A stretch of 64,000 bases of DNA from Laspinema sp. D2d. GTDB taxonomy: Bacteria > Cyanobacteriota > Cyanobacteriia > Cyanobacteriales > Laspinemataceae. The first letter of the stretch is position 1; every line of letters begins with the position of its first letter. The position numbers were made by a program, and so were the translations under genes. Below the pieces are notes generated by a model. It saw only the letters and a program-made list of their open reading frames with translations. It made no database searches and was not told the DNA's origin. Location of the stretch: contig NZ_JAMXFC010000007.1 of NCBI RefSeq assembly GCF_025370755.1, positions 119,472-183,471 of the forward strand, read 5' to 3'. Shown here piece after piece: positions 2,724 to 42,284 of the stretch.

Positions 2724-3584
2724 ATGAAAAATTCCCTCAAGCTGACGGCTTCGCGTCAAACCGACTCCCGATGGAAACAGTTGGGCTTCTATGCACTCTT
2801 GAGTGCGATCGCCTTCCTCACCCTACTCCCTTTAATTTGGCTGATTAGTACCGCCTTTAAATCTCCGAGTGAAAACATCTTTCAAGTTCCTCCGCAATTC
2901 TTACCGGCAGAACCGACCTTTCAGAACTTTGTTCGGGTCTGGGAAGCGAGTCCCTTCGGACAATATCTCTTTAATAGTACCCTGATTGCGGTCCTAACAG
3001 TGAGCTTTAATGTGATATTTTGTGCCTTAGCGGCTTATCCTTTGGCCCGATTAGAATTTCCCGGGAGGAATTTGATTTTTTCGGGAATAGTTTCTACGAT
3101 TATGATTCCCTTTCAAATCGTGATGATTCCCTTGTATATTTTAACCGTCCAATTGGGCTTAAAAAACACTTATTTAGGGATTATCTTCCCCTCTCTCGCT
3201 TCAGCCTTTGGTATTTTTTTATTACGTCAAGCCTTTCAAGGTGTGCCCAAAGAATTAGAAGAAGCAGGAAGGATGGATGGCTGTTCAGAATTAGGAATTT
3301 GGTGGAATGTGATGATTCCGGCAGTGAGACCCGCCCTAGTGACCTTAGCGCTATTTGTCTTTATCGGGTCTTGGAGTGATTTTCTGTGGCCGTTACTGGT
3401 GATTGACCGCCCGGAATTTTATACATTACCTCTAGGGGTGGCGCGATTAGAAGGGACATTTTCTTTAGATTGGCGGTTGATTGCGGCGGGGTCAACGATC
3501 GCAGTCGCCCCAGTCTTGCTCTTATTTCTTCTCTTGCAGCAATACATTGTTCCCACCGATGCCGGGACGGGAGTCAAAGGGTAA
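2724..3584 (+). CDS. Carbohydrate ABC transporter permease, MalG type
   Basis: This is one of the two membrane permeases of a binding-protein-dependent sugar importer (CUT1 family). Six hydrophobic segments are visible, starting with FYALLSAIAFLTLLPLIWL. The cytoplasmic EAA loop that docks on the ATPase is seen as EEAGRMDGCSELGIWW. About 286 residues is normal for MalG-type subunits. An in-frame TTG at 2691 would add 11 residues; I prefer the ATG at 2724 because it gives the usual short N-terminal tail. No MalF-like permease, ATPase or sugar-binding protein is next to it, so the partner subunits lie elsewhere. Substrate cannot be read from the sequence. Confidence 0.9.
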   Translation: MKNSLKLTASRQTDSRWKQLGFYALLSAIAFLTLLPLIWLISTAFKSPSENIFQVPPQFLPAEPTFQNFVRVWEASPFGQYLFNSTLIAVLTVSFNVIFCALAAYPLARLEFPGRNLIFSGIVSTIMIPFQIVMIPLYILTVQLGLKNTYLGIIFPSLASAFGIFLLRQAFQGVPKELEEAGRMDGCSELGIWWNVMIPAVRPALVTLALFVFIGSWSDFLWPLLVIDRPEFYTLPLGVARLEGTFSLDWRLIAAGSTIAVAPVLLLFLLLQQYIVPTDAGTGVKG

Positions 3585-3615
3585 GTATAAGCAGGGGGTT
3601 AAGTTCCCCCTCCCC

Positions 3616-6156: not shown

Positions 6157-6490
6157 GGATCTCTCGTGCCTGTTCTAAGATAGAGGATTGCTAGGAGTAG
6201 AAGCCAAGGCGTTATGCACTATTATAGAGGCACTCTTCCTCAGCCTAAATCTTCACCCCCAAAGGCGGGGATGGGTGGGGTCAATTAGCACAAGGGTAGT
6301 TCAACCTGTAGCGTTATTTAGAACATCCATTTAGAATAAGGTCAATCGCACCCCCCAAGGGCTTTCTAGCCCCAATCTGTCATTAAACCCAAAAAATTTG
6401 TAAAAACAATCTAATTTTTCCTCTCCCCCATCCTCCCCATCTCCCCCATCCTCCCCATCTCCCCCATCCTCCCCATCTCCCCCATCCCCC
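6157..6490. repeat. Intergenic stretch with an 18-bp tandem repeat
   Basis: No gene is visible between the pgpH start and the end of the next - strand gene. From 6423 to 6490 there are about 3.7 copies of an 18-bp C-rich unit, CTCCCCCATCCTCCCCAT. The same unit occurs in reverse complement at 14286-14361. The left part, 6157-6420, should contain the pgpH promoter but no clear site stands out. Confidence 0.8.
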
Positions 6491-7393
6491 CTAGACTTGC
6501 CAGGGACGAATCACATCAGGGGCCGCGACAGCGCGAAAATGAATGGCTTCTTGCGGTTGATACTGAACCTCATAGACCCCAGACCAAGTGGCAAGCAGGC
6601 GATCGCCTAGGTGAAATAGTTTATCGGTTTGCAATAGCCCCTGTTGCCAAGTCCAAGGGATGCCGGGAATGCTATTATAAGCCCCGGACAAAATTCCCGT
6701 GATTATGGTTGTCACAGCGCCTTGACTCCCTGTGCGAGTGGCCCGACTGATGGATAATCGGAAGTCTTCTAGGGTACTCAAAAGGCAGTAAAAGCCTAGG
6801 GCAAAGGGGAGGCTGCCAGTACCGTCAGTCTGGGTCAATTGTGAGCGAACCCGTTCTAAACTGGCACCTTGGGCGAGGAGGGTTTCGACGGTTGCCAGTT
6901 GGGGAATCAGCGGGGAGGGACTGTCCTGAAGATAGGCAATGGTTTCTCCAATCAAACTGTGCCGGTTCAGGCGTTCGGTCAGACTGGTGGCGATCGCATA
7001 CCCCAAGGCCAATAGTCCATCTCTTTCGGCTAAGGGGATTGACAAAAGTTCACTAATCTGGTACAGGGTGGTTCTTAAAAATTCTAATTGTTCGTGATAA
7101 AAGAGGAGAACCGGAAGCACAGCCATCAGGCGATCGCTCCCTAAAATTGCCGTTGATTCAATTCCCTCGGACCGTTGAGACACCGAGGCAACTGCCTCAA
7201 ACCAACTTGAGGAGTCAAATCCCCCATTTTGAATTAAACTTTGTACACTCCTCACCAGGTAGTCATCTTCCCCTGGCCTCGGGCGCACCTCAAGCCTAGG
7301 TCCGCTCAAGGAAATCATCCCGCTTCCTATCCCATAGCCTATATTAGCACCGAGTAGGGTTCCCTGAAACCGACTTAAAACCGAATATCGCAT
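6491..7393 (-). CDS. ADP-ribosylglycohydrolase-like protein
   Basis: The N-terminal SRFQGTLLGANIGYGIG and the C-terminal TTIITGILSGAYNSIPGIPW match the opening and closing helices of the ADP-ribosylglycohydrolase (DraG) fold, as does the length of about 300 residues. The acidic residues that bind the two magnesium ions are poorly kept: I see no clear GDAxG or DDT/DxD motif, only GEDDYL near residue 42. It may therefore be a degenerate, non-catalytic member. Such proteins are common in cyanobacteria next to unrelated genes. It sits alone, divergent from the pentapeptide gene downstream in the window. Confidence 0.6.
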   Translation of the reverse strand: MRYSVLSRFQGTLLGANIGYGIGSGMISLSGPRLEVRPRPGEDDYLVRSVQSLIQNGGFDSSSWFEAVASVSQRSEGIESTAILGSDRLMAVLPVLLFYHEQLEFLRTTLYQISELLSIPLAERDGLLALGYAIATSLTERLNRHSLIGETIAYLQDSPSPLIPQLATVETLLAQGASLERVRSQLTQTDGTGSLPFALGFYCLLSTLEDFRLSISRATRTGSQGAVTTIITGILSGAYNSIPGIPWTWQQGLLQTDKLFHLGDRLLATWSGVYEVQYQPQEAIHFRAVAAPDVIRPWQV

Positions 7394-7653
7394 TCTGATA
7401 ACAATTGCCCGTAAATATTATATAGAGCGAGTCTAAATTAGTTTGTCATAGAAATGAGAAGCTCCATAATCCCGGATCAGCAGTAGCAAGCAAGATGCTG
7501 GCACTCCTTCATTGTATTGCCTTTGATAAAGAGGAGTGGGAGCATCTTGTTACCGGATCAATAGAAAGCCGATCGCATTCCACTTCTGGCTAATAGCCAA
7601 GGGGAAAACTTGGGGGAGACAATCATAACAGAAGAGGCAACTTCGAGGCATTC

Positions 7654-8385
7654 ATGAAACAAATCCTCCTGGCGATCGCCATGCTGCTGACTAGCGCCCT
7701 TCCCCTAGGCGCTGAGAACCCCCTACACCTGCAACAACTCTTCAATACCCGAGACTGTCGCAACTGCGAACTCAGCGGCATCAACCTCAGTGGGGCTAAT
7801 CTTACCGGCGTCAACCTTAGCGGGGCCAACCTTAACGGGGCCAATCTTAGCGGGGCCAATCTTAGCGGGGCCAACCTTAATGGGGCCTTTCTGCTCGATG
7901 CCAACCTGACTGGGGCCAATCTCAGCAGTGCCTCCTTAATCGTCACCAACCTCAGTGGTGCAATTTTGCATGAAGCTGACTTAAAGGATGCGGATTTATA
8001 TGGGGCGATCGCCCCTCATGCTGAACTTAACTCCGTAAACCTCGTTGGGGCCTCTCTTCCCAAAGCCAATCTCTATCTCTGTGATTTAACCGAAGCGGAC
8101 CTCTCCACCGCCAACCTAGAAGGTGCCAACCTAGAACGCGCCGACTTAACCGATGCCAAACTTAGGAATACCATCCTGATCGATACCTCCCTCTGTCGCG
8201 CCATCATGCCCGATGGTTCTGTCTCGGAAATCGGTTGTCCCCCGGCTGAACCTGCACCTGAACCGGCTGCTGAACCTGCACCTGAACCGGCTGCCGAACC
8301 CACACCTGAACCAGTTGCCGAACCCACACCTGAACCGGCACCTCTTCTGCCACCGCCACCACCACCACCCCCAGTCACCCGATAG
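7654..8385 (+). CDS. Secreted pentapeptide-repeat protein with proline-rich tail
   Basis: A signal peptide (MKQILLAIAMLLTSALPLGA) is followed by about 35 pentapeptide repeats of the A(N/D)LxG type (about residues 40-195), which fold as a right-handed quadrilateral beta-helix. The motif DCRNCELSG opens the helix and LCRAIMPDG closes it. The last 45 residues are a low-complexity tail of repeated AEPxPEP units ending in eight prolines, suited to spanning or binding cell wall. A second protein with the same cap motifs is at 29870, inside the injection-system operon. Function is unknown. Confidence 0.85.
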   Translation: MKQILLAIAMLLTSALPLGAENPLHLQQLFNTRDCRNCELSGINLSGANLTGVNLSGANLNGANLSGANLSGANLNGAFLLDANLTGANLSSASLIVTNLSGAILHEADLKDADLYGAIAPHAELNSVNLVGASLPKANLYLCDLTEADLSTANLEGANLERADLTDAKLRNTILIDTSLCRAIMPDGSVSEIGCPPAEPAPEPAAEPAPEPAAEPTPEPVAEPTPEPAPLLPPPPPPPPVTR

Positions 8386-8550
8386 CGGTGGGGATAACTA
8401 GCCATAAGTCGAATGTGACTCCCCAAGGGAGTCCCGTAAAATAGGTGGATTCGATCTCATACCCACTCCGGTTGTACTCGACCTACTTTACTTTTTAGCC
8501 TGCATTGGGCGCAGCCTGTGCGACAGCGCCTAGTCCATTTGTCTGTATAG

Positions 8551-8576
8551 CCCCACCCTTGAGGGTGTGGGTTTTT
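8551..8576 (+). terminator. Probable intrinsic terminator
   Basis: A G/C-rich hairpin (CCCACCCT, loop, AGGGTGTGGG, one bulge) is followed directly by five T residues. It lies downstream of the pentapeptide gene and just before the ribosome binding site of the next gene. Confidence 0.6.
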
Positions 8577-8598
8577 GATCGCGCCAGGAGGAGACTTT

Positions 8599-9414
8599 AT
8601 GAAAAAAATCAGAACCCTAGTTCAGCACAAAAGTAACAAAAAATATCTCCCCACCTCTACCGTAGAGGGTCAATTTGAGTCGCGTCCTTTCCCCTCACCG
8701 ACGGAGGCATCTGCGGAGCCCACCCCCGGGGTGCAAGCTGCATCCGAGGGGAAAAAGCGTCAGGGTTTCAACTTTGCCAAAATTGATATCTTTCCACCAG
8801 AGGAATCGGAAACCCCGGGAGTCCCGGCAACGATTCAGCGTCAGGGAGGCGATCGCCCCGAATCCGAGGCGGAGTTAATCCAGTCCGATTCTGAAACAAC
8901 AACAACCACTCCTGAGACCCTGCAACTCAAGGAAGATGAAGAATTCCAAACTCAAGCAACGGATCAAGCTGCCGAGGAGGAATTAACCGTCAATGCTGCA
9001 CCGGCTACCGCCATTCAGCGAAAAGGCAAAGATAGACAAGCGCCAGTAGACGATCGCCATAGTATCAGTGACCCCTACATCGACCCCACGCGCTGGTTGG
9101 AAACCCTCAAACGGGAACGAGTCGCCGATTTATTCCGCACTGCTGGGGGATTAGACGGTCATGTTCAACAGATCCAAATTGAAATCAACCGGCTGATTTC
9201 AGACCGCAATCGGCGCAAGTTAGAAGGTCAAACGGGGGAAGACGTTGTACACTATACAACCACCTTGAATACCTTACGCAATTCCCTGATTGCCAGTGCT
9301 AAAGCCGCAGAATTTGATTTTGCCAAATTTGGGATTACTTTTGCGCCCCTAGGCTCCGATCTTTATCTCGAATGTAGCAATGGTCAAGTCAAAGTGGATG
9401 GCAAGCCCGTCTAA
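8599..9414 (+). CDS. Probable eCIS cargo protein with IQR-type N-terminal signature
   Basis: The start at 8599 is set by AGGAGGA seven bases upstream; an earlier in-frame ATG at 8575 has no such site. The first 150 residues are disordered and carry FNFAKIDIFPP followed by ATIQRQGGDR and later ATAIQRKGKD. This resembles the leader of DUF4157-type injection-system cargos (short hydrophobic stretch, then IQR/IQPKL). No DUF4157 zincin core follows. The C-terminal 120 residues (from about 150) look folded and helical but match nothing I know. The position just upstream of the structural genes supports a cargo or cargo-adaptor role; this is an inference. Confidence 0.55.
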   Translation: MKKIRTLVQHKSNKKYLPTSTVEGQFESRPFPSPTEASAEPTPGVQAASEGKKRQGFNFAKIDIFPPEESETPGVPATIQRQGGDRPESEAELIQSDSETTTTTPETLQLKEDEEFQTQATDQAAEEELTVNAAPATAIQRKGKDRQAPVDDRHSISDPYIDPTRWLETLKRERVADLFRTAGGLDGHVQQIQIEINRLISDRNRRKLEGQTGEDVVHYTTTLNTLRNSLIASAKAAEFDFAKFGITFAPLGSDLYLECSNGQVKVDGKPV

Positions 9415-33155: not shown

Positions 33156-33171
33156 GCATCTGCTGGAAGAA

Positions 33172-33245
33172 CAAGAAACCGGGTTTCTGCCGTAATAGTT
33201 GCCCAGATGCAACAGATGGGATGAAAAAACTCGGGTTTTGGCCCC
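33172..33245. repeat. Dispersed GAAACCSGGTTTC intergenic repeat
   Basis: AAGAAACCGGGTTTCT is a near-palindrome here, followed after about 40 bases by the related AAAACTCGGGTTTTGG. Similar pairs occur at 42936-42994 and 56846-56956, always between genes. The HIP1 site at 33278 is the last before the island. Confidence 0.65.
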
Positions 33246-33397
33246 GATTGAGGTGGAGGGGATAGGGGGATGATGAGGCGATCGCATCTGGATCCCACCT
33301 TCCGCAGGTTTAAGTGTTGATTTTTTATTTTTTACAATCCCTGCCAGGATATGGAAACCCTGTTAAGTTCTCCATTGTTGATAGTCTGTAATTTTAT

Positions 33398-33425
33398 GGT
33401 AAGATATTCTTACCCTTAGTAAGAT
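33398..33425 (+). promoter_or_regulatory. Candidate operator of the island operon
   Basis: GGTAAGA-TAT-TCTTACC is a perfect inverted repeat, and a third half-site GTAAGAT follows 20 bases (two helical turns) after the first. It lies 14 bases before the first gene of an operon whose second gene is an XRE regulator, so autoregulation is likely. TAAGAT may also serve as a -10 element. Confidence 0.6.
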
Positions 33426-33438
33426 AAAGGCACAGGCT

Positions 33439-33732
33439 ATGACCTCAAACGAAGTGGAGGTGAAACTGATAGAGGTGCTTCAAGGCATCCAGAGCGATAG
33501 CGGATATGACGGCAGCGGCATCGTGGGAACGACGTGTCCACTTAGTAACCTTGAAGGATTTGATAGTATGCTCTGGCCCGTCGCAATCAGTATGTTGGCC
33601 GCTGCGCTTGACGTAAACATCCCTAATGATAAAAATATTTTTCTCTCAGAGGATGGTAAGCGTCGGCTTAATATTAGTGAATCAGCGGCTGTAGTCTGCG
33701 AAATGGTCAGCAGAAAGGAGAATCAAGGATGA
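33439..33732 (+). CDS. Acyl-carrier-protein-like small protein
   Basis: The 97 residues follow the plan of an acyl carrier protein: an N-terminal helix (VEVKLIEVLQGI), the phosphopantetheine-site pattern LEGFDSMLWPV with Ser43 in DSM where ACPs have GADSL, then helix II (AISMLAAALDVNIPNDKN) and a last helix. IPNDKN corresponds to the IPD(E)E stretch of ACP. The stop overlaps the XRE start by four bases (ATGA). A holo-ACP synthase gene is 4 kb downstream in the same island. It is unlikely to be the housekeeping ACP, because the body is divergent. The carried group is unknown. Confidence 0.65.
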   Translation: MTSNEVEVKLIEVLQGIQSDSGYDGSGIVGTTCPLSNLEGFDSMLWPVAISMLAAALDVNIPNDKNIFLSEDGKRRLNISESAAVVCEMVSRKENQG

Positions 33733-34079
33733 CCGAAGCAATAGGAAAAAAAGCAATTATCGCTTCTCGCATTCGTGAAGCTCGCAGGATGGCAGGGCTC
33801 TCCCAAGCTCAAGTAGCACAAATGCTGGGTCTTCATAGACCATCGATCTCAGAAATAGAGGCTGCTAACAGAAGTGTTTCGGCTGAAGAGATTGCACAGC
33901 TTGCTGAAATTTTTGATGTCAGCGCGTCGTGGTTAGTCGGTGAGGGCGTGGACAAAGTTGATATCCACGACAACAAACTCCAGCTTGCAGCCAGAGAACT
34001 ACAGAAGCTTAAGCCAGAAGACCTTGATCGGCTTCTAACGCTACTTGCCTCGATACGAACTGGGGGAAATCAACAGTGA
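33729..34079 (+). CDS. XRE-family transcriptional regulator
   Basis: Residues about 12-68 form a Cro/C1 helix-turn-helix: IREARRMAGLSQAQVAQMLG, then LHRPSISEIEAANRSV. A linker and a C-terminal helix (LKPEDLDRLLTLLASI) may dimerise. AAGGAG lies upstream. It is translationally coupled to the preceding carrier-like gene and, by a GTGA overlap, to the following ImmA/IrrE gene. XRE repressors paired with such proteases are typically cleaved or released on stress or phage signals. The palindrome just upstream of the operon is its likely binding site. Confidence 0.9.
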   Translation: MTEAIGKKAIIASRIREARRMAGLSQAQVAQMLGLHRPSISEIEAANRSVSAEEIAQLAEIFDVSASWLVGEGVDKVDIHDNKLQLAARELQKLKPEDLDRLLTLLASIRTGGNQQ

Positions 34080-34993
34080 TAAACAATAGCATTACCCGCC
34101 TCAATCCGAACTGGGGGAGACAAACTGTGAGTAATCAGATGCAAGTATTGGCTCAACAAGCAATGCTTAAATCAATTGATGTGCGGAATCAAGCCGAATT
34201 TGATCTTAATAGCCCTATTTGCATCTATGGCTTGTGCGACAAGCTGAAGGTGAAAGTCCGGTTTGTTGACATCAGTATGGAAGGAATATACCTCAAAGGA
34301 GAGGAACCCAAAATTCTGCTTTCAGCATTAAGACCCCTTCCAAGGCGGAATTTTACCTGTGCTCATGAGCTTGGACATCACATTTTTGGGCATAGTTCGA
34401 CGGTTGATGAACTCATAGAAGACTCAGACAAACCTAAGACCTTTAATCCAGACGAGTTTCTAGTTGACTCCTTTGCAGGTTTCCTACTCATGCCAATTTT
34501 AGCTGTCCGGAAGGCATTCGTTTCGCGCGGATGGGATGTTGCTTCAGTAACGCCTGTTCAAATTTTTACAATCGCCTGTAGTTTTGGTGTTGGCTACAAA
34601 ACTTTGATCGATCACATGACTTATGCTCTAAAAATGATGAGTCGCTCGCAGGCGGCCTTGCTTCTTAAATCTACTCCTAAAGCTATCCGACAAGAAATTC
34701 TGGGGCGCTCATCAACAGACCCGTTAATCGTTGCTGATGCACAGTGGTCACTGCCTACAATAGATGCCGAGGTTGGAAGTCAGCTTTTACTGCCATCCTT
34801 GGCAGAGGCTACAAAGAATACTATTACTGTTCAAGCAGATCTTCCTTTAGGACGCCTCTTTCGAGCTAACCGTCCTGGGATCGTGCGCGTCCACTGCCCC
34901 AACAACAAATGGGCAGTATTTGTTCGCGTTTCGCGTTATCAGTTTGTTGGACTAAGTAAATATCGTCACCTTGAGGAGGTCGAAGATGAATAA
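34076..34993 (+). CDS. ImmA/IrrE-family metallopeptidase
   Basis: The zinc motif CAHELGHHIFGH (His97, Glu98, His101) and a following acidic stretch place it in the ImmA/IrrE family, whose members cleave or inactivate partner XRE repressors. The C-terminal half (from about 200) is a separate domain of unknown function. GTG at 34076 overlaps the upstream stop. A second in-frame GTG at 34127 is preceded by almost the same sequence (CGAACTGGGGGA, then AACTGTGA), as if the ribosome binding site and start had been duplicated; starting there gives 288 residues. Confidence 0.9.
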   Translation: MINNSITRLNPNWGRQTVSNQMQVLAQQAMLKSIDVRNQAEFDLNSPICIYGLCDKLKVKVRFVDISMEGIYLKGEEPKILLSALRPLPRRNFTCAHELGHHIFGHSSTVDELIEDSDKPKTFNPDEFLVDSFAGFLLMPILAVRKAFVSRGWDVASVTPVQIFTIACSFGVGYKTLIDHMTYALKMMSRSQAALLLKSTPKAIRQEILGRSSTDPLIVADAQWSLPTIDAEVGSQLLLPSLAEATKNTITVQADLPLGRLFRANRPGIVRVHCPNNKWAVFVRVSRYQFVGLSKYRHLEEVEDE

Positions 34994-35804
34994 CAATGTG
35001 CCTCCCTTAATTGAAGAAACAAACCTCTCCCGTGCTTGGGCTCGTGCTTTTCTACACATCATCCATAATCCTGGCAAGGAGATTTCACCGCTGCTGATAA
35101 CCTTAACAGGTTTTACTAATGGGGTCCCAGACGAAAATAAAGGAATTCGAGATGCACTCGACGATAGCCTCTTAGCTAACAGCAAGCAAAAAGTAGAAAC
35201 AGTCGCAAACACGATCTTTCCTGCCGCTTACTGGCGGGTATCTAAGCATAATCGCCAAAAGTTATTTGATATCTATATCAAAAATTTACCCAGGATTAAG
35301 GCTCTTGCTGCTTCAAAAAATCGACGGGGTATTTACTTTGAAAGGCTGATAGCATTTGGTTCAGGCCCTGAAAATGGTAACCAACTTGAATACATTATTT
35401 CTCAATACAACTCGCGACCAAAAGTTAGAAGGAGTATGTTCCAAGCATCGGTTTTTGATCCTGCACGAGATCACGTTTCCAGTGCCCAAATTCCTTTTCC
35501 TTGCCTTCAACATATGAGCTTGGTACCACAGGGGAATAGCCTCACGGTCAACGCTTTCTATGCTACTCAACAGATATATGAAAAAGCCTATGGTAACTAC
35601 TTGGGTCTTTGTAGACTGGGTGATTTTATGGCTCATGAAATGGGATTGACGTTGGGGCGTATGAACTGCTTCATTGGTGTAGCCAAGCTGGACACTATTA
35701 CGAAGTCACATCACAGCCTAACTACCCTCATAAATGCAGCTCAAAATGAGTTGCATATAACAACTGCTCAACAGACAGGCGAGGGAATAAAACATGGTAA
35801 CTAA
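34986..35804 (+). CDS. Thymidylate-synthase-like protein, possible nucleotide hydroxymethylase
   Basis: ATG at 34986 follows GAGGAGG at the right spacing; a TTG at 34971 is less likely. The C-terminal half resembles thymidylate synthase and dUMP/dCMP hydroxymethylases: an Arg-rich RPKVRRSMFQASVFDPARD, the catalytic-cysteine region IPFPCLQHMSLV (Cys173, compare PPCH in TS), and YATQQIYEKAYGNYLGLCRL at the place of the RSxDxxLGxPFNI segment. The N-terminal 110 residues are divergent. In phage hypermodification pathways such enzymes make 5-hydroxymethyl pyrimidine nucleotides. Its end overlaps the next gene by 11 bases. Similarity is judged by eye and is moderate. Confidence 0.6.
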   Translation: MNNNVPPLIEETNLSRAWARAFLHIIHNPGKEISPLLITLTGFTNGVPDENKGIRDALDDSLLANSKQKVETVANTIFPAAYWRVSKHNRQKLFDIYIKNLPRIKALAASKNRRGIYFERLIAFGSGPENGNQLEYIISQYNSRPKVRRSMFQASVFDPARDHVSSAQIPFPCLQHMSLVPQGNSLTVNAFYATQQIYEKAYGNYLGLCRLGDFMAHEMGLTLGRMNCFIGVAKLDTITKSHHSLTTLINAAQNELHITTAQQTGEGIKHGN

Positions 35805-36900
35805 ACGTCGTAAACAGGTCAATGAAATCGAACAAAACAAACAATTAACTCTTGACTTTGGAGAGTATGGTAACGAACTAAGTTCTGCACCAGAGATCAT
35901 TTCACATATTCTTCCTGCCAAGCCGACTGCTGTCTTCAATACTTACTGGCGATTTGCTGCCGAACGGCAAAAAATCTTTTTCAAAAAGCTAGAGAAAGCA
36001 CCGATGCCTTGGACTGATGATCCAATTCTTTCGATATATAAATTTACTAATGCCTACCGCGCATCAGATCGTGTAAGCCAGTACCTAATACGCCATGTCA
36101 TCTACCAGGATGAGCTTCCATCATCACTTAATGAGGTGTTCTTTAGAGTTATCCTATTCAAAATCTTCAACAAAATAGAAACGTGGCAGCTTTTGGAGGA
36201 CAGGCTCGGTTCCATTATTTACGCGGAATATTCCTTTGAACGCTATGATCAAGTTCTTACTGATGCCATTCAGTCAGGTCAAACCATCTATTCTGCGGCA
36301 TACATCATGCCGTCAGGGGCAACAAGCTTCGGAAACGCTGCAAAACACCGCAATCACCTCAAGCTAATCGAGTTGATGATGGTTAATGATTTACCAAAAA
36401 AACTTGCCGATGCTAAAACTATGCATCAAGGATTCGATTTGCTACGTGAATATCCAACTATCGGCGATTTCTTGGCATACCAGTTCATTACTGATGTTAA
36501 CTATAGCGAAATTACTAACTTTAGCGAGATGGAATTTGTTATTCCTGGACCAGGGGCGCTAGATGGAATTCGCAAATGCTTTTCTGACCTCGGTGGGCTT
36601 AACGAACCAGAAATTATAAAGTTTATGGCAGATATTCAAGAGTCTGAGTTTGAGCGGCTAGGGCTCAATTTTCAGTCTCTCTGGGGAAGGAAGTTGCAAT
36701 TGATCGATTGCCAAAATCTATTCTGTGAGGTCGATAAATATGCTCGAATGAAACATCCTGATATTTCAGGAATATCAGGTCGGACTCGCATAAAACAGAA
36801 GTATTCAGGTAAAGGACAACCACTAGATTACTGGTATCCACCCAAGTGGGGAATTAACCAAGCTATTAAGGAATCCAAAAAAATCAAGGCTGATATTTAG
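35794..36900 (+). CDS. Alpha-glutamyl/putrescinyl thymine pyrophosphorylase-like (5-hmdU DNA kinase helical domain) protein
   Basis: The segment FNTYWRFAAERQ (residues 48-59), PWTDDPILSIYKFTNAYRAS (72-91), DRVSQYLIRHVIY and later FVIPGPGALDGI (248-259) are the family signature of the helical enzymes linked by comparative genomics to thymine hypermodification in phages and found in sporadic bacterial operons. Phage relatives act on 5-hydroxymethyl-deoxyuridine in DNA as kinase or pyrophosphorylase. 368 residues fits the bacterial forms. It is preceded by a thymidylate-synthase-like gene and followed by MazG, which supports a nucleotide or base-modification role. The real substrate (DNA, RNA or free nucleotide) is unknown. 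Confidence 0.75.
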   Translation: MVTKRRKQVNEIEQNKQLTLDFGEYGNELSSAPEIISHILPAKPTAVFNTYWRFAAERQKIFFKKLEKAPMPWTDDPILSIYKFTNAYRASDRVSQYLIRHVIYQDELPSSLNEVFFRVILFKIFNKIETWQLLEDRLGSIIYAEYSFERYDQVLTDAIQSGQTIYSAAYIMPSGATSFGNAAKHRNHLKLIELMMVNDLPKKLADAKTMHQGFDLLREYPTIGDFLAYQFITDVNYSEITNFSEMEFVIPGPGALDGIRKCFSDLGGLNEPEIIKFMADIQESEFERLGLNFQSLWGRKLQLIDCQNLFCEVDKYARMKHPDISGISGRTRIKQKYSGKGQPLDYWYPPKWGINQAIKESKKIKADI

Positions 36901-36933
36901 TTTGAGTTTAAATAGAATTTAAAGGAGTGGATA

Positions 36934-37812
36934 ATGGATTTTCGCCAATATCAAGAAGAAGCACTCAAGACGGATCATATTCCTGCTGAAAATGATACCC
37001 AAATAATTGTACCCCTGCTCGGCCTAGCAGGTGAAGCCGGTGAGTTACTCAGTGAGTACAAAAAGTACCTTCGCGACGGCGAAGCACATAAGCTTTTCCC
37101 AGAACGGGTCGCAGAAGAATTAGGCGATCTACTCTGGTATATTGCTAATTTATCTAGCAAATTTAATCTTAATTTGGAACAAATTGCGGAAGGTAATCTT
37201 CAAAAATGTCGCGATCGTTGGGGATGGAGAGATTTAGTAGAAACAGGTGCGTACATATTTGACAGGGATTTTCCAGAACATGAGCGCTTACCACGTCAGT
37301 TTGTGGTCGAAATTACGGAGGTAAGCGAAAATAACTCAGTCAAGATGAAAGCATTTATTAATGGAGAACAGATTGGAGACCCGCTTACTGATAACTCCTA
37401 CTCAAGTGATGGCTATCGATTTCACGACATTTTCCATTTCTCTTATGCCGCAGTTTTGGGTTGGTCGCCAGTTTCTCGTAGTAATGTTAAACGTAAGCGC
37501 AAAAGCAATCCCCAAATTGACGAAGTTGAAGATGGTGGTCGTGCAATAGCCATTGAGGAAGGTATATCAGCACTCGTCTTTAGCTATGCCAACAAACACA
37601 ACTTATTGGAAGGAGTTGAAACTCTTGATTATGAACTGCTGAAAACCATCAAAAATATGACCGAACACTTAGAAGTAGCTAAGTGTTCGCTTGGGGATTG
37701 GGAAAAGGCTATCCTGCGCGGGTACGAAGTTTGGCGACAGGTTAAAAAAAAGCGTGGTGGAAATGTTGTTGTAAACCTTGATAAACGCTCCATAATCTAT
37801 CAAGATAATTGA
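36934..37812 (+). CDS. MazG-like nucleotide pyrophosphohydrolase with extra C-terminal domain
   Basis: AAAGGAG precedes the ATG. Residues 1-100 are an all-alpha MazG domain with the magnesium-binding set GEAGELLSEYKK (Glu34, Glu37) and AEELGDLLWYI (Glu61, Glu62, Asp65). From about 115 a second domain follows (PRQFVVEITEVS, YRFHDIFHFSYAAVLGWSPV, IEEGISALVFSYA), resembling the MazG C-terminal domain known from base-modification loci. MazG hydrolyses (d)NTPs to monophosphates, so it could supply the substrate of the TS-like enzyme or remove normal or modified nucleotides. It is the last + strand gene of the operon and converges on acpS. Confidence 0.85.
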   Translation: MDFRQYQEEALKTDHIPAENDTQIIVPLLGLAGEAGELLSEYKKYLRDGEAHKLFPERVAEELGDLLWYIANLSSKFNLNLEQIAEGNLQKCRDRWGWRDLVETGAYIFDRDFPEHERLPRQFVVEITEVSENNSVKMKAFINGEQIGDPLTDNSYSSDGYRFHDIFHFSYAAVLGWSPVSRSNVKRKRKSNPQIDEVEDGGRAIAIEEGISALVFSYANKHNLLEGVETLDYELLKTIKNMTEHLEVAKCSLGDWEKAILRGYEVWRQVKKKRGGNVVVNLDKRSIIYQDN

Positions 37813-37838
37813 GATTAATCATTGATTGGTTCGGTAAC

Positions 37839-38243
37839 TTATAAATCTGCTTGATCCAACATTGAACCCAAGGCAATTGCACTTGCTACCGCATAGGAAT
37901 CTGTATGGCTTATACTCAAGAACCATGTTGTAACACCCAAGTCCGCTGCTATTTCTTGACATCTGCCATACAGAACTACTACAGGTTTACCTGTTGATAA
38001 CCGTTCGATTTCAATATCAGTCCACGAAATTCCTTGAGTCCACCCTGTGCCAAGAGCTTTTAGAACCGCTTCTTTAGCTGCAAAACGACCTGTAAAGTAT
38101 TGGACGCGGTTCATACTACATTCAGCAGTAAAGCACTCTTTCCCTGTGAAGCATCGCGCTTCAAAACGACTTCCAAAACGCTCTATTATTTTTTTAATAC
38201 GTTTGGTTTCAACAATATCAATACCATAACCAATAATATCCAT
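37839..38243 (-). CDS. acpS: Holo-[acyl-carrier-protein] synthase AcpS
   Basis: The motifs GYGIDIVETKRI and FTGRFAAKEAVLKALGTGW are the two magnesium and CoA-binding signatures of AcpS, followed by LSISHTDSYAVASAIA. AcpS transfers 4'-phosphopantetheine from CoA to the serine of a carrier protein. 134 residues is normal. Cyanobacteria generally rely on a single Sfp-type enzyme (as in Synechocystis and HetI of Nostoc), so an AcpS is unusual. The carrier-like gene at 33439 is its likely partner. It is convergent with MazG and upstream of no other gene; the DUF1643 gene lies before it on the same strand. Confidence 0.9.
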   Translation of the reverse strand: MDIIGYGIDIVETKRIKKIIERFGSRFEARCFTGKECFTAECSMNRVQYFTGRFAAKEAVLKALGTGWTQGISWTDIEIERLSTGKPVVVLYGRCQEIAADLGVTTWFLSISHTDSYAVASAIALGSMLDQADL

Positions 38244-38322
38244 AATAGTAATTAGATCGACTTATAGCTAAACAATAAAACATTAGTATTTTTATGTGAA
38301 AAATGTAGAAACAAATTTAAGC

Positions 38323-38802
38323 CTATTTGGATGGGTAAAATACAGGCTTTATATTGCCTTTAACATACAGGGGATGGCGTGGATAGCCTCTCTGGGTAAT
38401 TCCCAAACAGTAGAGTTCATCAAAGCTAGTTAAACAATCGAGGACCTCTCTACAACGGTTCTTAAACATACCATTATTACCCCAAGCTACTATAAGTTTA
38501 TCCGCTGATTTAATAGCTTTTTCGAGATAGTAATCATTTTCTAACCCAATGGGATCTCTCACCTTTTTCAGTTCTGCTGGTTTTGAAGCTCGGTAAGCAA
38601 ATAGGTTGACCACTTCAAGCGAACCATAACCCCAAGACTGAGCGAAACTGATGCAGCGCCGCACCGTAGGGTCATCATTAGTTGCATCCGCGCGACTAGG
38701 ATTAAGCATAACAAAGGCGACCCTTGAAGCGTTAGGGTCCCACTCCCGCCATAACGAGTAGCGGTAGATCTCCATTAAGTCTATTACTGCACCTTTTTTC
38801 AT
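38323..38802 (-). CDS. DUF1643 protein
   Basis: The sequence YRYSLWREWDPNASRVAFVM, LNPSRADATNDDPTVRRCIS and LEVVNLFAYRASKPAELKKV followed by VAWGNNG defines DUF1643, a small soluble domain of unknown activity often found in phages and accessory islands. ATG at 38802 gives 159 residues; an in-frame TTG at 38841 would add 13 that do not look conserved. About 80 bases separate it from acpS on the same strand, so the two may be co-transcribed facing the main operon. It marks the right end of the island. Confidence 0.85.
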   Translation of the reverse strand: MKKGAVIDLMEIYRYSLWREWDPNASRVAFVMLNPSRADATNDDPTVRRCISFAQSWGYGSLEVVNLFAYRASKPAELKKVRDPIGLENDYYLEKAIKSADKLIVAWGNNGMFKNRCREVLDCLTSFDELYCLGITQRGYPRHPLYVKGNIKPVFYPSK

Positions 38803-38882
38803 AGTTGTTCCATCTGAACATTCCAGAAAATTTTCCCTCAACTATTGGTAAATTGGCAAGTCTCCTAAAGGGCCGCTACCAT

Positions 38883-38964
38883 CCTCAAACGAAATCGCCG
38901 CTAAAACGCTAGAGGTCGTTACCCGGCTTGCCCGGGATTATCCGAGTTGATTTGACGATCGCCA
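38883..38964 (-). pseudogene. Remnant of the 3' end of a DUF1795-like gene
   Basis: About 82 bases match 39544-39624, which spans the last codons and downstream flank of the DUF1795-like gene at 39586. Read on the - strand the remnant encodes AIVKSTRIIP, identical to the end of that protein, but nothing resembling the rest lies upstream. It sits 80 bases outside the DUF1643 gene, at the island border. The rest of 38803-39120 shows only AT-rich sequence that may hold the promoter of the next gene. Confidence 0.7.
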
Positions 38965-39120
38965 GCAGGCAAACTTTCCGCGCGCTTCACACAAACTTCA
39001 CAATAGGGCGAGAAGCTTTACAATTTCTTTACACAAGTTTTGCTTAACTCTTGTACCTTGAAAGATAGGAAACGTTTATATCCCAAGCTGAACACCGATC
39101 GCATTCCCAGAGGTGCTGTT

Positions 39121-39393
39121 ATGAGGCAATTCTTGTTTACTCTCTCCCACCCCATCCGTCAATGGCTGGATCAGATTGAAATCCGAGATCCAGATGTTGC
39201 TCGACTCCTCTACAAATTGATTCCCGCTCAATGTCCCTTCGCCCGAGATATCAAAATCGGGGGTCGTGTCATTCTCCAGATTCCCCCCCTATGTAAGCTC
39301 AATCCCTTCTATGAGCAGCTAATGGGACTGAGATTTCGGGCACTGTGCTACCTTGTGGATGAATGTGGCATTGATATCCAAGCCGTTTCATGA
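39121..39393 (+). CDS. Mo-dependent nitrogenase C-terminal domain protein
   Basis: The 90 residues (HPIRQWLDQIEIRDPDVARL, LIPAQCPFARDIKIGGRVIL, IPPLCKLNPFYEQLMGLRFR) match a small cyanobacterial family named after a C-terminal region of Mo nitrogenase-related proteins. These proteins occur widely in cyanobacteria, including non-fixers, and their function is unknown. AGAGGTG precedes the ATG at 39121; an upstream ATG at 39040 in the same frame adds a poorly conserved leader. Two cysteines (PAQCPFARD, PPLCKLN) are the conserved candidates for a metal or disulfide. Confidence 0.85.
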   Translation: MRQFLFTLSHPIRQWLDQIEIRDPDVARLLYKLIPAQCPFARDIKIGGRVILQIPPLCKLNPFYEQLMGLRFRALCYLVDECGIDIQAVS

Positions 39394-39585
39394 ACTACCA
39401 CTCTTGAATCAAAGATTACAATAGTGGCTTTCTCCCAAGCAGATTGCCCAACCGTAGATTTGTTGCATCCTCTAAGGTTGGGTCATACATCTGGACAGTA
39501 GGCTTTGTCCCGGGTCCTGCCAGTCAATCAGGGTCAAAAACATTCCTCAACCGAAACCCCCACTAAAACGCTAGAGGTTGTCACA

Positions 39586-40566
39586 CTAATTGTCCGGAAT
39601 TATCCGAGTTGATTTGACGATCGCCTCGAAGATGGGGACATCCCTCGGTTCATATTGCTTTAAGGTTTCCGCCTTGAATACATAAGCGCTGCTGGGAGTC
39701 CAAATTAAGCCTTGGACATTCACTAAATCAATATCCGTTCCTTCATAAGACCATTGCATCTGGCGGAGATAGGCCAGATGCGGTCCTAGGGAAAACTGCT
39801 CTTGTTTCAAAATTTCATAGTCAGAATACAGGAGGCGGTGAGTTGCTTCGGACTTGCGAATCGCTTCCTCCAAACCTGCTGGAGTCTTATCGGTGGGAAT
39901 TGTGCGGGTACAACTGATGCGAGGGTGATATCCATCCAATTCTGGAACTGCTGGAGCGATCGCCTGAAATTGATTCTCCTGGAGTTCTTGTACTGACCAG
40001 GACGCAGGGATTAAAATCGATACCCCCAATCTGGGATTAAAATAACTAATCTGCGTCAAGGGGTCACTCCTTAAGGCTGTTCTACCCAGTCCCATTCCGA
40101 TAAATCGAATTGAACCGACAGCTTGCTCAAAAACAGGCAGCAATGACTCGGCAAACTGCCTCTCGACGATTCCGATCGCGCTGTAAAGGGCATCCGGAAG
40201 TTGAATACAAGCTTGATAGTGGGTTACCTGTCTATTAAATTCAGGGTCATAGAAGCTAAAAATATCCACTCTCGCCGGAAAATTATCAACCGTCAGGGGG
40301 TAGCGATCGCGAATTTCCAGAGGTGGAGGGTATAACTGCAACAATTCTTCCGCAAGGCGATCGCACCCATCGGACACCCGTTCCCACACAGACAAGGGAA
40401 CCCGTTGAATTAAAAGCTGGGGATGATAGGGGCCCTCCGATGTACAGCTATAGCTCACCCGTTCCCTGTTGCTTTCCCCTTCGTGCCAATCCTCTGGGAG
40501 TTCTAGGGAAACACCCATTTCTGCACTGTAATAAGGGGTCAACTGAATCCTCGGTGATGGCTGCAT
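39586..40566 (-). CDS. Tandem DUF1795/DcrB-like protein, candidate effector chaperone
   Basis: Two repeats of the same domain are visible (about residues 10-155 and 170-325). Each starts with an aromatic residue, then GVSLELPEDWHEG or GVSILIPASWSVQ, and ends with FEQAVGSIRFI or FEAIVKSTRII. This resembles the DUF1795 (DcrB/Eag) and PsbP-like fold; Eag proteins are dedicated chaperones of type VI effectors. The gene starts six bases after the stop of the lipase effector, so it is co-translated with it. A role as loading chaperone for the lipase is inferred from fold and position. No signal peptide or lipobox is present, which fits a cytoplasmic protein. Confidence 0.65.
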   Translation of the reverse strand: MQPSPRIQLTPYYSAEMGVSLELPEDWHEGESNRERVSYSCTSEGPYHPQLLIQRVPLSVWERVSDGCDRLAEELLQLYPPPLEIRDRYPLTVDNFPARVDIFSFYDPEFNRQVTHYQACIQLPDALYSAIGIVERQFAESLLPVFEQAVGSIRFIGMGLGRTALRSDPLTQISYFNPRLGVSILIPASWSVQELQENQFQAIAPAVPELDGYHPRISCTRTIPTDKTPAGLEEAIRKSEATHRLLYSDYEILKQEQFSLGPHLAYLRQMQWSYEGTDIDLVNVQGLIWTPSSAYVFKAETLKQYEPRDVPIFEAIVKSTRIIPDN

Positions 40567-40572
40567 GAGAGA

Positions 40573-42066
40573 TTAAAACAGATTTTTCCAGAGATTTCGC
40601 GTCGAATCATAAATGCTAGAAGCCCCACTAGCAATTTTATCCCCCACATAAGAAGCACCTGTAGCAATTTTATCCCCTACATAAGAAGCACCTGTAGCAA
40701 TGCTAGAAGCCCCACTAGCAATTTTATCCCCCACATAAGAAGCACCCGCAGCAACGCCACTCCCAATCTTCTTCGCCCCTCGGTAGGCACTGAGTACGGC
40801 ACCCGGTACGGCACCCAATAGCGTTCTACCGCCCCATTCTGTTAAAATTTGGCGGAACCAATAGGGATATTCTTCAAACTTCTCCACTTTGCCCTGATGG
40901 TTAGCTTTATGTTCGGCAACGCCTAATTCTTCCAACATCTCATCGGTCAAGCCAAGGGCATCGCGCTGGTCTTTGAAGGCATCGCTATTGAGTAAATATT
41001 GAATATGAGAGGTCGGACTGCTGCCGACTTGGTGCAAGAGCACCTCTCCAGCCAGATGCTTACCCCCGGCAACATCTACGATATCCCCGGTGGCGATGTG
41101 ATGCCGAACTTCTTCGGGACGTTCACTGGCATCTAACTTGCCAAACATATAGGATTGGATGCGATTGATGGCAGGGGCTTGAAAGGTAACAACGCGACGA
41201 ACTTTATTAGGAAACGCAGACGCAGCGTGTTGAGCCAGGGCACCGCCGAGACTGTGACCCACAACATCCACTTTGCCACCGGCAGTCGCGATCGCCTCAG
41301 CGACTTTTTTCTGTTGTCTTTTGAAGGCCGTAAAACCAATGGCGATCGGATCAAGATCAGCCAGGAGGTCGGATACATCGTCTGGGCTTGTTCCCTTAAA
41401 AGCCAGAATGGGAGTCCGGCCTCCCTTCTCTACCGGCATGAGTAATCCCATGAAAAAGCCTTCACCGCGAATAGTGAGAGTCCAATTTCGCTGGTAGCCT
41501 CGGGTAGCCAGCCAATCTCCTGCGGCAGCCGGGAGGGTGTCTCCTTGATAGGCGAAACGGTGACCGATGATTTCATATTCGATATCTTCGGATTTAATTT
41601 GCGGCTGGGCATCGGTGCGATCGCCGCTATCCCGTTGAATAGTTAGGGGCTTAGTTTGCAAGGACACAGGGGTAAAGTTCTGTTCCTGGCGTTGACTCTT
41701 CCGCTGAATCTGGGGTGAGGAGAAAAGTTTACCCTGAATGGATTCGCCCGGGTAGCCGATTTTCTGAGATACCTTCGCCCCCTGGCAGTCGGCTTCTTGC
41801 TCGTATGTATCCTGGGGTGCGCCGATTATCAGTTTAGGTTGAATCGGGACCCGAGGCGAAAAGTCAACACGAGAGAGGCGATCGCCTGCGCCATAGCTTT
41901 GCTTACCCGATCCCTCATAGCTGGGCATACTCCGGCTGCCCAGGGTTTCGGGAACTTGGGTTTGGAGTTTCGGCACTTCCCTAGGAGTCTGTAACCCGAA
42001 CGGCCTCACCCTGGGAGTGGGTGCAGGGTTAGGCCATTTTTTTTGAATGCGTTCTCCTGTAGCCAT
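40573..42066 (-). CDS. eCIS effector: class 3 lipase with cargo leader
   Basis: Residues 1-125 are a disordered leader with DRLSRVDFSP, VPIQPKLIIGAP, DTYEQEAD and PQIQRK, matching the leaders of the two DUF4157 effectors upstream but without the DUF4157 zincin core. Residues about 160-360 are an alpha/beta-hydrolase of the lipase 3 type: nucleophile elbow VVGHSLGGALAQ (Ser272), with Asp328 in ATGDIVDV and His353 in SSPTSHIQ as likely partners. The C-terminus has four copies of SGASxx/GASYVGDKIA units (about 436-485), an amphipathic glycine-rich array that may insert in membranes. Start and first residues (MATGERIQKK) match the other effectors. Confidence 0.85.
   Translation of the reverse strand: MATGERIQKKWPNPAPTPRVRPFGLQTPREVPKLQTQVPETLGSRSMPSYEGSGKQSYGAGDRLSRVDFSPRVPIQPKLIIGAPQDTYEQEADCQGAKVSQKIGYPGESIQGKLFSSPQIQRKSQRQEQNFTPVSLQTKPLTIQRDSGDRTDAQPQIKSEDIEYEIIGHRFAYQGDTLPAAAGDWLATRGYQRNWTLTIRGEGFFMGLLMPVEKGGRTPILAFKGTSPDDVSDLLADLDPIAIGFTAFKRQQKKVAEAIATAGGKVDVVGHSLGGALAQHAASAFPNKVRRVVTFQAPAINRIQSYMFGKLDASERPEEVRHHIATGDIVDVAGGKHLAGEVLLHQVGSSPTSHIQYLLNSDAFKDQRDALGLTDEMLEELGVAEHKANHQGKVEKFEEYPYWFRQILTEWGGRTLLGAVPGAVLSAYRGAKKIGSGVAAGASYVGDKIASGASSIATGASYVGDKIATGASYVGDKIASGASSIYDSTRNLWKNLF
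40618..40755 (-). repeat. In-gene tandem repeats at the lipase C-terminus
   Basis: Units of about 33 and 72 bases encode GASYVGDKIA and SGASSIATG segments. Copies are nearly identical at base level (for example CCCACATAAGAAGCACC), so the array is recent and probably variable in length. Confidence 0.75.
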
Positions 42067-42252
42067 AAGTAGGCTCTCTCGAAGTATTGAGAAATTATCT
42101 TTCTAGTTTAGCATCGGTGAAATAGTCATTCATCTTTGAAAAGACTGAGAAATAGCCAAAATTGACCAGGGGTTAGGCCAGGGATGGGAGCCTGAGCGAT
42201 CGCCCTGTTTGAAGGGACCTTGGTGGAAGAAGGCGATCGCTTATGAATCTCC

Positions 42253-42284
42253 AAATCGCCGCTAAAAGGCTAGACAACTTAGCC
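42253..42284. repeat. Short dispersed repeat
   Basis: AAATCGCCGCTAAAAGGCTAGA here closely matches AAATCGCCGCTAAAACGCTAGA at 38891 and, more loosely, 39557. All three are in or beside intergenic sequence of the effector and island-border region. Confidence 0.55.

Follow-up and report, generated by a model that had tools for sequence, protein, structure and literature searches.

What does an operon do that begins with the gene for a carrier protein and continues with genes for enzymes of pyrimidine nucleotides? This question is raised by a locus in the cyanobacterium Laspinema sp. D2d that lies within 64,000 nucleotides of contig NZ_JAMXFC010000007.1 (this whole stretch is hereafter called the window). 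A check of the open reading frames confirmed eight genes at window positions 33439-38805, six on the plus strand and two facing them on the minus strand. The first five encode an acyl carrier protein (ACP)-like protein, an XRE-family repressor, an ImmA/IrrE-type metalloprotease, a protein related to thymidylate synthase (TS) that we term TSL, and a protein of the family defined by the helical domain of 5-hydroxymethyl-deoxyuridine (5hmdU) DNA kinase, termed HMUDK, which we take to be the protein also called aGPT-Pplase. Genes for a MazG pyrophosphohydrolase, the phosphopantetheinyl transferase (PPTase) AcpS and a DUF1643 protein follow. The first five genes overlap by 4, 4, 8 and 11 bases, and 33 bases separate HMUDK from MazG. 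This content and these overlaps are as described in a first-pass annotation of the sequence, which had proposed a foreign, regulated island for pyrimidine hypermodification.

The operon is real, widespread and precisely regulated, and its first gene encodes a carrier protein. We propose that it is a mobile, self-repressed operon for the carrier-protein-dependent modification of pyrimidine nucleotides that most likely acts against phages, a reading to which we assign a probability of about 0.5.

Recurrence of the five-gene core

An HMUDK alignment was used to scan the 84,980 species genomes of the genome_contigs collection, and the best 80 of 218 relatives were kept. These loci, together with neighbourhoods collected earlier and four IMG/VR contigs, gave a survey set of 104 loci (L023-L126), which was analysed with iterated profiles. 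The gene order ACP-XRE-ImmA-TSL-HMUDK on a single strand was found in 61 of these 104 HMUDK-selected loci, and 57 remained after removal of duplicates (L039, L049, L051 and L112). Across the 61 loci, the core genes mostly overlap or almost touch. Hosts include Cyanobacteria, Proteobacteria, Bacteroidota, Planctomycetota, Acidobacteriota, Chloroflexota and others, and the closest named relatives of the window genes are cyanobacterial. This ordered recurrence exceeds chance. Many loci share descent (for example, L060-L062, L093/L094 and L038/L040), and therefore Fisher values for pairs of modules (21 comparisons, uncorrected) are not to be read as probabilities.

The first-pass annotation had treated the eight genes as one recurring set. 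Its expectation of recurrence holds strongly for the first five genes, but the eight-gene unit was rejected, given that AcpS is present in 21 and DUF1643 in seven of the 57 loci. The conserved unit is a five-gene core with interchangeable tails. Frequent recent transfer between phyla was likewise considered and is poorly supported, as a TSL tree of 50 rows sorts mostly by phylum (13 changes, with a minimum of nine), although its branches are long and some of its joins are unsafe.

Conservation counts given below refer to the window protein plus those of the 57 loci that passed a coverage filter, namely 55 for TSL, 54 for ACP, 56 for ImmA and 57 for XRE. The alignments A4 and A5 hold 46 and 43 loci, and A8 holds 38 rows, more rows having been removed than strictly needed. 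In one cyanobacterium (L024: 9457-12379), the TS-like gene is interrupted by an insert of approximately 2.9 kb and the remaining core genes are present.

A conserved operator and its probable regulator

The left boundary assigned to the island by the first-pass annotation, position 33398, is the first base of the palindrome GGTAAGATATTCTTACC. Its inner pattern, GTAAGANNNTCTTAC, has a single exact occurrence in the 6.63-Mb genome, at window 33399-33413, with four further sites at one mismatch; the reversed pattern has 16 matches. The operator overlies a −10 box, TAAGAT, at 33400-33405. Within 110 bases upstream of the ACP gene, the exact pattern is present in 39 of 55 regions (the window plus 54 loci) and a version with at most one mismatch in 50 of 55. 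Four further regions have two mismatches (L055, L064, L077 and L088), and L080 has no site. At the same tolerance of one mismatch, the pattern was found in none of 2,750 shuffled upstream regions, in none of 43 non-core loci and in nine of 10,727 random windows, which were screened only roughly for overlap with the operator, such that some of the nine hits are perhaps true sites. A TTGAC sequence lies within 45 nucleotides upstream of the operator in 30 of 50 loci, and at a distance of 19-23 nucleotides in 26 of 50. The promoter scan by itself is weak, because 13 such sites were found in the region versus 11.4 expected.

The putative protease carries residues H97, E98, H101 and E127, which are invariant in 57 of 57 ImmA proteins, and its matches in the Protein Data Bank (PDB) include IrrE and CapP. 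The closest PADLOC models are capH for the XRE protein and capP for the ImmA protein. Thus, the helix-turn-helix (HTH) repressor, the HExxH protease and the operator at the operon promoter that characterize a CapH/CapP-type switch are all present. A conserved operator at the operon's own promoter implies that the XRE/ImmA regulator very probably controls its own operon, and the switch suggested by the first-pass annotation agrees with the single exact operator in the genome and with the capH and capP matches. XRE/ImmA pairs are also regulators of mobile elements and of damage responses. CapH and CapP have been described as governing adjacent immune operons, where single-stranded DNA activates CapP to cleave CapH (PMC13373217), and PprI is reported to sense single-stranded DNA (PMC10904395).

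The carrier protein

Searched by itself, the window ACP is not matched by any family of Pfam, PHROGs, NCBIfam or PADLOC. A profile built from the alignment, in which identity to the window protein is as low as 17%, matches solved acyl carrier proteins in the PDB (best E 7.3e-6). Ser43 is the sole residue identical in all 55 aligned ACPs, and the serine is also kept in three ACPs that the coverage filter had left outside the alignment. The strongest indication that this serine is used is that two kinds of PPTase accompany the ACP gene. AcpS, found in 21 of the 57 core loci, is in the window genome one of two PF01648 matches, the second being on another contig (C9). In a haloarchaeal plasmid locus, an Sfp-type PPTase takes the place of AcpS and adjoins the ACP-like gene. 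None of the 13 loci with a radical SAM gene has AcpS, and these would therefore depend on a host PPTase. Lastly, the counterpart in Streptomyces is annotated as an acyl carrier protein and matches the Pfam PP-binding family. Together, the invariant serine and the profile matches support the assignment of the first gene as that of a genuine carrier protein, in agreement with the first-pass annotation.

The thymidylate synthase-like protein

TSL has no Pfam match. Its match to the NCBIfam model TIGR03283, at 44.5 bits, does not reach the curated cut-off of 174.55, and its best profile match in the PDB is weak (E 0.017), to the CMP 5-hydroxymethylase MilA. A comparison by hhalign with the true TS encoded in some of the loci (TS2) gave E 4.4e-4 at a probability of 33.6. 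Residues Tyr117, Arg120, Gln133 and Cys173, which are invariant in 56 of 56 TSL proteins, fall on TS-pocket residues in the MilA and TS2 alignments, with Cys173 aligned to the nucleophilic Cys of both. An AlphaFold2 model of TSL has a pLDDT of 92.7 and a pTM of 0.90.

Past this Cys the two alignments diverge. The MilA version places Ala193 on the phosphate-binding Arg and Asn204, also invariant in 56 of 56, on the base-reading residue, which is Asp in MilA. In the TS2 version, the basic position 200 (Lys in 38 and Arg in 18 of 56 proteins) falls on the phosphate Arg and Asn204 has no counterpart. A loss of the phosphate Arg, as read from the MilA alignment, is accordingly one of two possible readings. 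In thymidylate synthases, the Glu is catalytic, this Arg holds the phosphate and the Asn reads the base. We regard TSL as probably TS-related, a relationship that is weak by sequence, and not as a proven hydroxymethylase. True TS2 genes occur in 13 of the 57 loci, though not in the window locus. Elsewhere in the window genome (contig C46: 41087-44377), ThyX is matched as two pieces in one frame of 627 amino acids, separated as if by an intein; upstream of it, Thymidylat_synt gives a weak match (E 4.3e-6).

HMUDK, MazG and the accessory modules

The HMUDK protein scores 386.5 bits against PF18723 (cut-off 25) over profile positions 1-280 of 281, and both it and the MazG_C domain are secure members of their Pfam families. 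The first-pass annotation had staked its proposal on profile matches of the TS-like and pyrophosphorylase-type proteins and on recurrence in other genomes, and the Pfam and NCBIfam searches and the neighbourhood survey did not contradict it on these points. Searches of the PDB gave only chance-like matches for the HMUDK profile (best E 0.13) and none at E 0.1 for the single MazG sequence. A distant blastn search found no E. coli relative of an Azotobacter HMUDK gene; as a comparison of DNA only, this is weak evidence. In one cyanobacterium (L026), two adjacent HMUDK genes are followed by TS2-type genes.

When the unassigned neighbours were clustered, four families were present in 12-20 loci, the next clusters comprising three loci each. 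Pfam names for one representative of each family are thymidylate kinase, radical SAM with SPASM domain, dCTP deaminase-like and true thymidylate synthase. Counts in the 57 loci are 32 for MazG, 21 for the dTMP-kinase-like protein, 21 for AcpS, 13 each for radical SAM, TS2 and the dCTP-deaminase-like protein, and seven for DUF1643, all of which are lower bounds because the stretches extend at most approximately 8 kb from HMUDK and seven of the 57 end within 3 kb downstream. MazG and radical SAM never occur together, and all 13 loci with TS2 also have the kinase. In 16 loci the kinase and HMUDK form a single reading frame, and three loci have neither MazG, radical SAM nor TS2. The tail of the window locus carries MazG and AcpS. 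A second cyanobacterial arrangement, seen in seven loci, places DUF1643 between HMUDK and MazG. Most accessory genes belong to families of enzymes that act on free nucleotides.

Insertion in the genus

The first-pass annotation had called the island foreign. The G+C content is 40-46% at 33-39 kb and mostly 46-54% in adjacent kilobases, yet it is 39.5% at 30-31 kb, and thus composition supports this view only weakly. Better evidence for a foreign insert comes from sister genomes, which lack approximately 9 kb at this position. In three of them (G001, G002 and G004), alignment with the gene for a tetratricopeptide repeat (TPR) protein stops at window 33156 and resumes 46-88 bases later from 42225-42260, so that about 33157-42225 is absent. 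In G007, which lacks about 33298-42225, the left match continues up to 33297 and is joined directly to the right match. G004 has a second copy of the empty-site junction nearby. G005 carries the operon at the identical site, with 95.3% identity over 33338-39503 and 84-92% in the flanks. The right flank of G003 is matched to 38963, where its contig ends, and the flank comparison gave no full match for G006. The claim of foreignness is thereby upheld, except that the absent segment is larger than the eight-gene island. HMUDK is carried by two of eight genomes of the genus (the window genome, G000, and G005), by five of 99 in a sample of relatives and by 17 of 386 in a sample of the phylum.

The interval 33157-42225 appears as a variable site between the TPR gene and the gene at 42331, with content that differs among sister genomes. 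It includes a minus-strand gene (40573-42066) whose product has a lipase-like GHSLGGA motif and an N-terminus (QPKL.IGAP.D..E.EAD) resembling that of proteins of 822-1023 amino acids near the same site in sister genomes. This N-terminus presumably resembles leaders of the DUF4157 type.

Plasmids, viral contigs and other locus types

TSL was found in 22 of 72,556 plasmid records, 14 of which are conjugative, and HMUDK in 21 (E 1e-10). Conjugative plasmids that carry operons of the ACP type come from Nostoc, Rhizobium and Sinorhizobium. On some plasmids, the neighbours, certain of which were scanned with PADLOC, are of defence type, including SIR2/AAA, RES and VapBC, a restriction endonuclease and a caspase. 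A phage origin of TSL was considered and found no support in 50,697 phage records, none of which matched, or in a pattern scan of viral_contigs, in which no stretch out of 140 was confirmed. The scan did, however, overlook at least the 52.9-kb IMG/VR contig L123, which was found through HMUDK and has TSL, so that TSL may still occur in viruses; at 3065-8602 this contig carries HMUDK, a facing set of ACP-like reading frame, XRE, ImmA and TSL, and genes for MazG and a kinase. HMUDK relatives are present in 486 phage records.

A second type of TSL locus has the order ACP-like, XRE, ImmA, C1 peptidase and TSL. In five records these genes face a uracil-DNA glycosylase and MazG-type genes, as read from record annotation, with one record checked by Pfam and one gene at the MazG position annotated as hypothetical. 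The second type is joined to dTMP kinase, HMUDK and PPTase on a Haloarcula plasmid, and to AcpS, dCTP deaminase and HMUDK on a Rhizobium plasmid. A DS motif is present in all seven first genes of other types that were read (six plus that of Streptomyces). The ACP profile of the main type (type A) matches two of the six, and Pfam PP-binding matches one of two tested (Streptomyces). The type A palindrome is missing in five of six other-type loci (4-6 mismatches), whereas L143 has two mismatches. In two loci on Rhizobiaceae plasmids (L144 and L174), annotated caspase-family genes adjoin the genes for the ACP-like protein, XRE, ImmA and C1 peptidase, in one case next to a pYEATS protein.

Proposed function and alternatives

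The scheme that we propose starts from what can be read in the sequences, namely the operon, its operator, the conserved residues, the recurrence and the swapping of modules. From these we infer a signal, cleavage of the repressor, a chemistry, a role for the carrier, a product and a protective effect. At rest, the XRE protein would be bound to GTAAGATATTCTTAC across the −10 box. A signal of stress or infection, which by analogy with CapP and PprI/IrrE might be single-stranded DNA or DNA damage, would activate ImmA to cleave XRE and open the operon. AcpS or a host enzyme would then place phosphopantetheine on Ser43 of the carrier, and the TSL cysteine would attack C6 of a uracil-type nucleotide. 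HMUDK and the helpers specific to each locus (dTMP-kinase-like, dCTP-deaminase-like, true TS, radical SAM or MazG) may activate and complete the substituent at C5. The altered nucleotide, either free or after entry into DNA, might damage virus replication, while MazG would limit its amount.

Modification at the level of the nucleotide appears likelier than in DNA because the partner enzymes mostly act on free pyrimidine nucleotides. The phage precedent for HMUDK (PMC6449724) and the glycosylase of the second locus type speak for the DNA level. A defensive purpose is suggested by the type of switch, by a distribution that is patchy and linked to mobile elements, by the defence-type neighbours on plasmids and by the DefensePredictor paper (PMC13092281). 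That paper validated by experiment E. coli defence systems that contain 5-hydroxymethyluracil kinase and thymidylate synthase domains, predicts a defensive role for aGPT-Pplase, MazG, MazG-C and dUTPase, and names dNMP kinase and NMAD in the same figure legend as the validated domains. In a bolder version, which we consider rather unlikely, the holo-ACP would offer an acyl or amino-acyl group to a TS-like enzyme, most members of which lack the folate-type catalytic Glu. The result would be a new class of C5-modified pyrimidine nucleotides that would serve bacteria and archaea as an inducible poison of viral replication.

Several observations weigh against the proposed function. No adenylating, condensing, thioesterase or acyl-transferring family is found among the recurrent neighbours (those in at least three loci), nor is a polymerase gene. 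Position 80 of TSL, aligned to the catalytic Glu of MilA and TS2, is Ala in the window protein and Glu in only 13 of 56 proteins; this Glu is kept in all nine of the nine TS2 proteins. Ordinary folate hydroxymethylation by TSL therefore seems doubtful, and TSL does not qualify as a canonical TS-family dUMP hydroxymethylase with the catalytic Glu. Thus, of the TS-like hydroxymethylase put forward in the first-pass annotation, the relation to the TS superfamily stands, weakly, and the activity is in doubt. The placement of the phosphate Arg also depends on the alignment chosen. Moreover, the frequency of the core is biased upward, as loci were picked by similarity to HMUDK and mostly to that of core members, and the proximity to defence genes consists of individual plasmid examples.

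One alternative is that HMUDK and MazG produce or remove a modified nucleotide that acts as the messenger to an effector. In line with this, a third type of locus exists outside the core set, where HMUDK and MazG recur with ThsB-like TIR, Nmad2 and TIR_2 genes (clusters of 17, 15 and 12 loci, with one representative of each named by Pfam). Nine loci (L095, L102, L111, L113, L114, L115, L118, L121 and L122) hold MazG, HMUDK, the ThsB-like TIR, Nmad2 and a second TIR-type protein together, and on the Gloeothece plasmid pP742404 (L132) a patatin gene overlaps HMUDK and is followed by MazG and a TIR gene, forming a different HMUDK operon with genes of effector type. The ACP-type core, however, has no effector-type family among its recurrent neighbours, and we consider this explanation rather unlikely. 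We consider it less probable still that the system acts on viral 5hmdU, in DNA or nucleotides, by adding or removing groups so that phage DNA carrying the modification is damaged or cut out. The phage 5hmdU DNA kinase works on DNA after replication (PMC6449724), HMUDK relatives are common to the 486 phage records noted above, and the five C1-peptidase-type loci with uracil-DNA glycosylase (Pfam-checked for one) and MazG have no HMUDK in the stretch displayed. Yet two other loci of that type do have HMUDK, and the dTMP-kinase-like, dCTP-deaminase-like, TS and MazG partners use free nucleotides.

Maintenance of a plasmid or island by addiction, or a general response to DNA damage that lacks an antiviral role, would fit the known occurrence of XRE/ImmA pairs in mobile elements and damage responses as well as the 14 conjugative plasmids among the 22 TSL records, and single-stranded DNA sensing by PprI (PMC10904395) points the same way. 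A conserved set of nucleotide enzymes would exceed the needs of an addiction module, and we judge this explanation improbable. The biosynthesis of a secreted, antibiotic-like nucleoside antimetabolite is called to mind by the weak resemblance of TSL to MilA, an enzyme of mildiomycin biosynthesis, and by the usual presence of carrier proteins in such pathways. This is the least probable of the explanations and indeed very unlikely, since the recurrent neighbours include no transporter or peptide-forming family, the operon is compact and repressed with an ImmA switch, and plasmid copies lie near defence-type genes.

Features of the locus

Table 1. Promoter, operator and gene features of the Laspinema locus, in window coordinates.
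Feature	Position	Strand	Evidence
Promoter, sigma-70-like: TTGATA, 16-nt spacer, TAAGAT with extended TG	33378..33405	+	Scan, 9/12 matches
Operator palindrome GGTAAGATATTCTTACC, covering the −10 box	33398..33414	none	Exact GTAAGANNNTCTTAC unique in own genome; relatives
Downstream half-site GTAAG	33419..33423	+	GTAA[GT] 5-7 nt past operator in 37/50 loci
Carrier protein (ACP-like), Ser43 the predicted phosphopantetheine site	33439..33732	+	Conserved serine; alignment profile vs PDB
XRE-family repressor, CapH-like	33729..34079	+	Pfam HTH_3 E 4.4e-15; PADLOC capH E 3.5e-16
ImmA/IrrE metalloprotease, CapP-like, HExxH	34076..34993	+	Peptidase_M78 E 8.5e-11; PADLOC capP E 6e-12
TS-like protein (TSL), Cys173 and Asn204	34986..35804	+	TIGR03283 E 1.3e-11, below cut-off
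HMUDK_hel protein (5hmdU DNA kinase helical domain)	35794..36900	+	PF18723 E 9.3e-116
MazG pyrophosphohydrolase with MazG_C domain	36934..37812	+	PF18722 E 2.6e-84; PF03819 E 8.6e-6
AcpS (phosphopantetheinyl transferase)	37839..38243	−	PF01648 E 8.9e-19
DUF1643 protein, accessory	38323..38805	−	PF07799 E 1.7e-50

The start of TSL is placed at the ATG at 34986; an upstream TTG at 34971 is likewise open.

Significance and comparison with known systems

If carrier-dependent modification of nucleotides is indeed the function, the operon would join carrier-protein biosynthesis with immune nucleotide chemistry, two fields that do not meet in the papers found by our search. Should the product be an altered pyrimidine nucleotide, it would add a new member to the natural antiviral nucleotides and show a TS-related protein carrying out a new reaction, and it would help to explain the scatter of HMUDK and MazG_C genes through cellular genomes. 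The conserved operator gives direct access to induction, and clean test points are provided by Ser43, Cys173 and the HExxH motif. A literature search of titles and the beginnings of abstracts found no description of the operon, although a prior bioinformatic sketch may exist.

The operon shares with CapH/CapP immune operons an HTH repressor and an ImmA-type protease near the promoter of the operon that they likely control. It differs in that the pair sits after the ACP gene, inside the operon, and in that the controlled genes look like those of nucleotide-modifying enzymes. With MilA and thymidylate synthase, TSL has in common the aligned and conserved Cys, Tyr, Gln and one Arg, and its Asn204 aligns with the base-reading Asp position of MilA, but the MilA match is weak and the catalytic Glu is not conserved in TSL. 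Burroughs et al. (2015) reportedly described nucleotide-centric conflict systems in whose neighbourhoods genes for MazG, Nmad and pyrophosphorylase occur, and such genes recur in the loci considered here.

Domains of 5-hydroxymethyluracil kinase, TS, aGPT-Pplase, MazG and MazG-C are likewise shared with the DefensePredictor systems; the main text of that paper contains neither 'acyl carrier' nor 'phosphopantethein', a count that covers text only, and the systems drawn in it may include the operon (PMC13092281). Thymidine hypermodification in phages M6, ViI and phiW-14 also combines an HMUDK-type enzyme with a TS-superfamily protein and nucleotide enzymes (PMC6449724). In contrast, the present operon is cellular or plasmid-borne and adds a carrier protein, AcpS and XRE/ImmA, and most of its TSL proteins are without the conserved TS Glu; TSL has no match in the 50,697 phage records, though it is present on L123. 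We view the operon as a variant of the nucleotide-modification conflict systems, whose carrier-dependent chemistry, if shown, would be new in kind.

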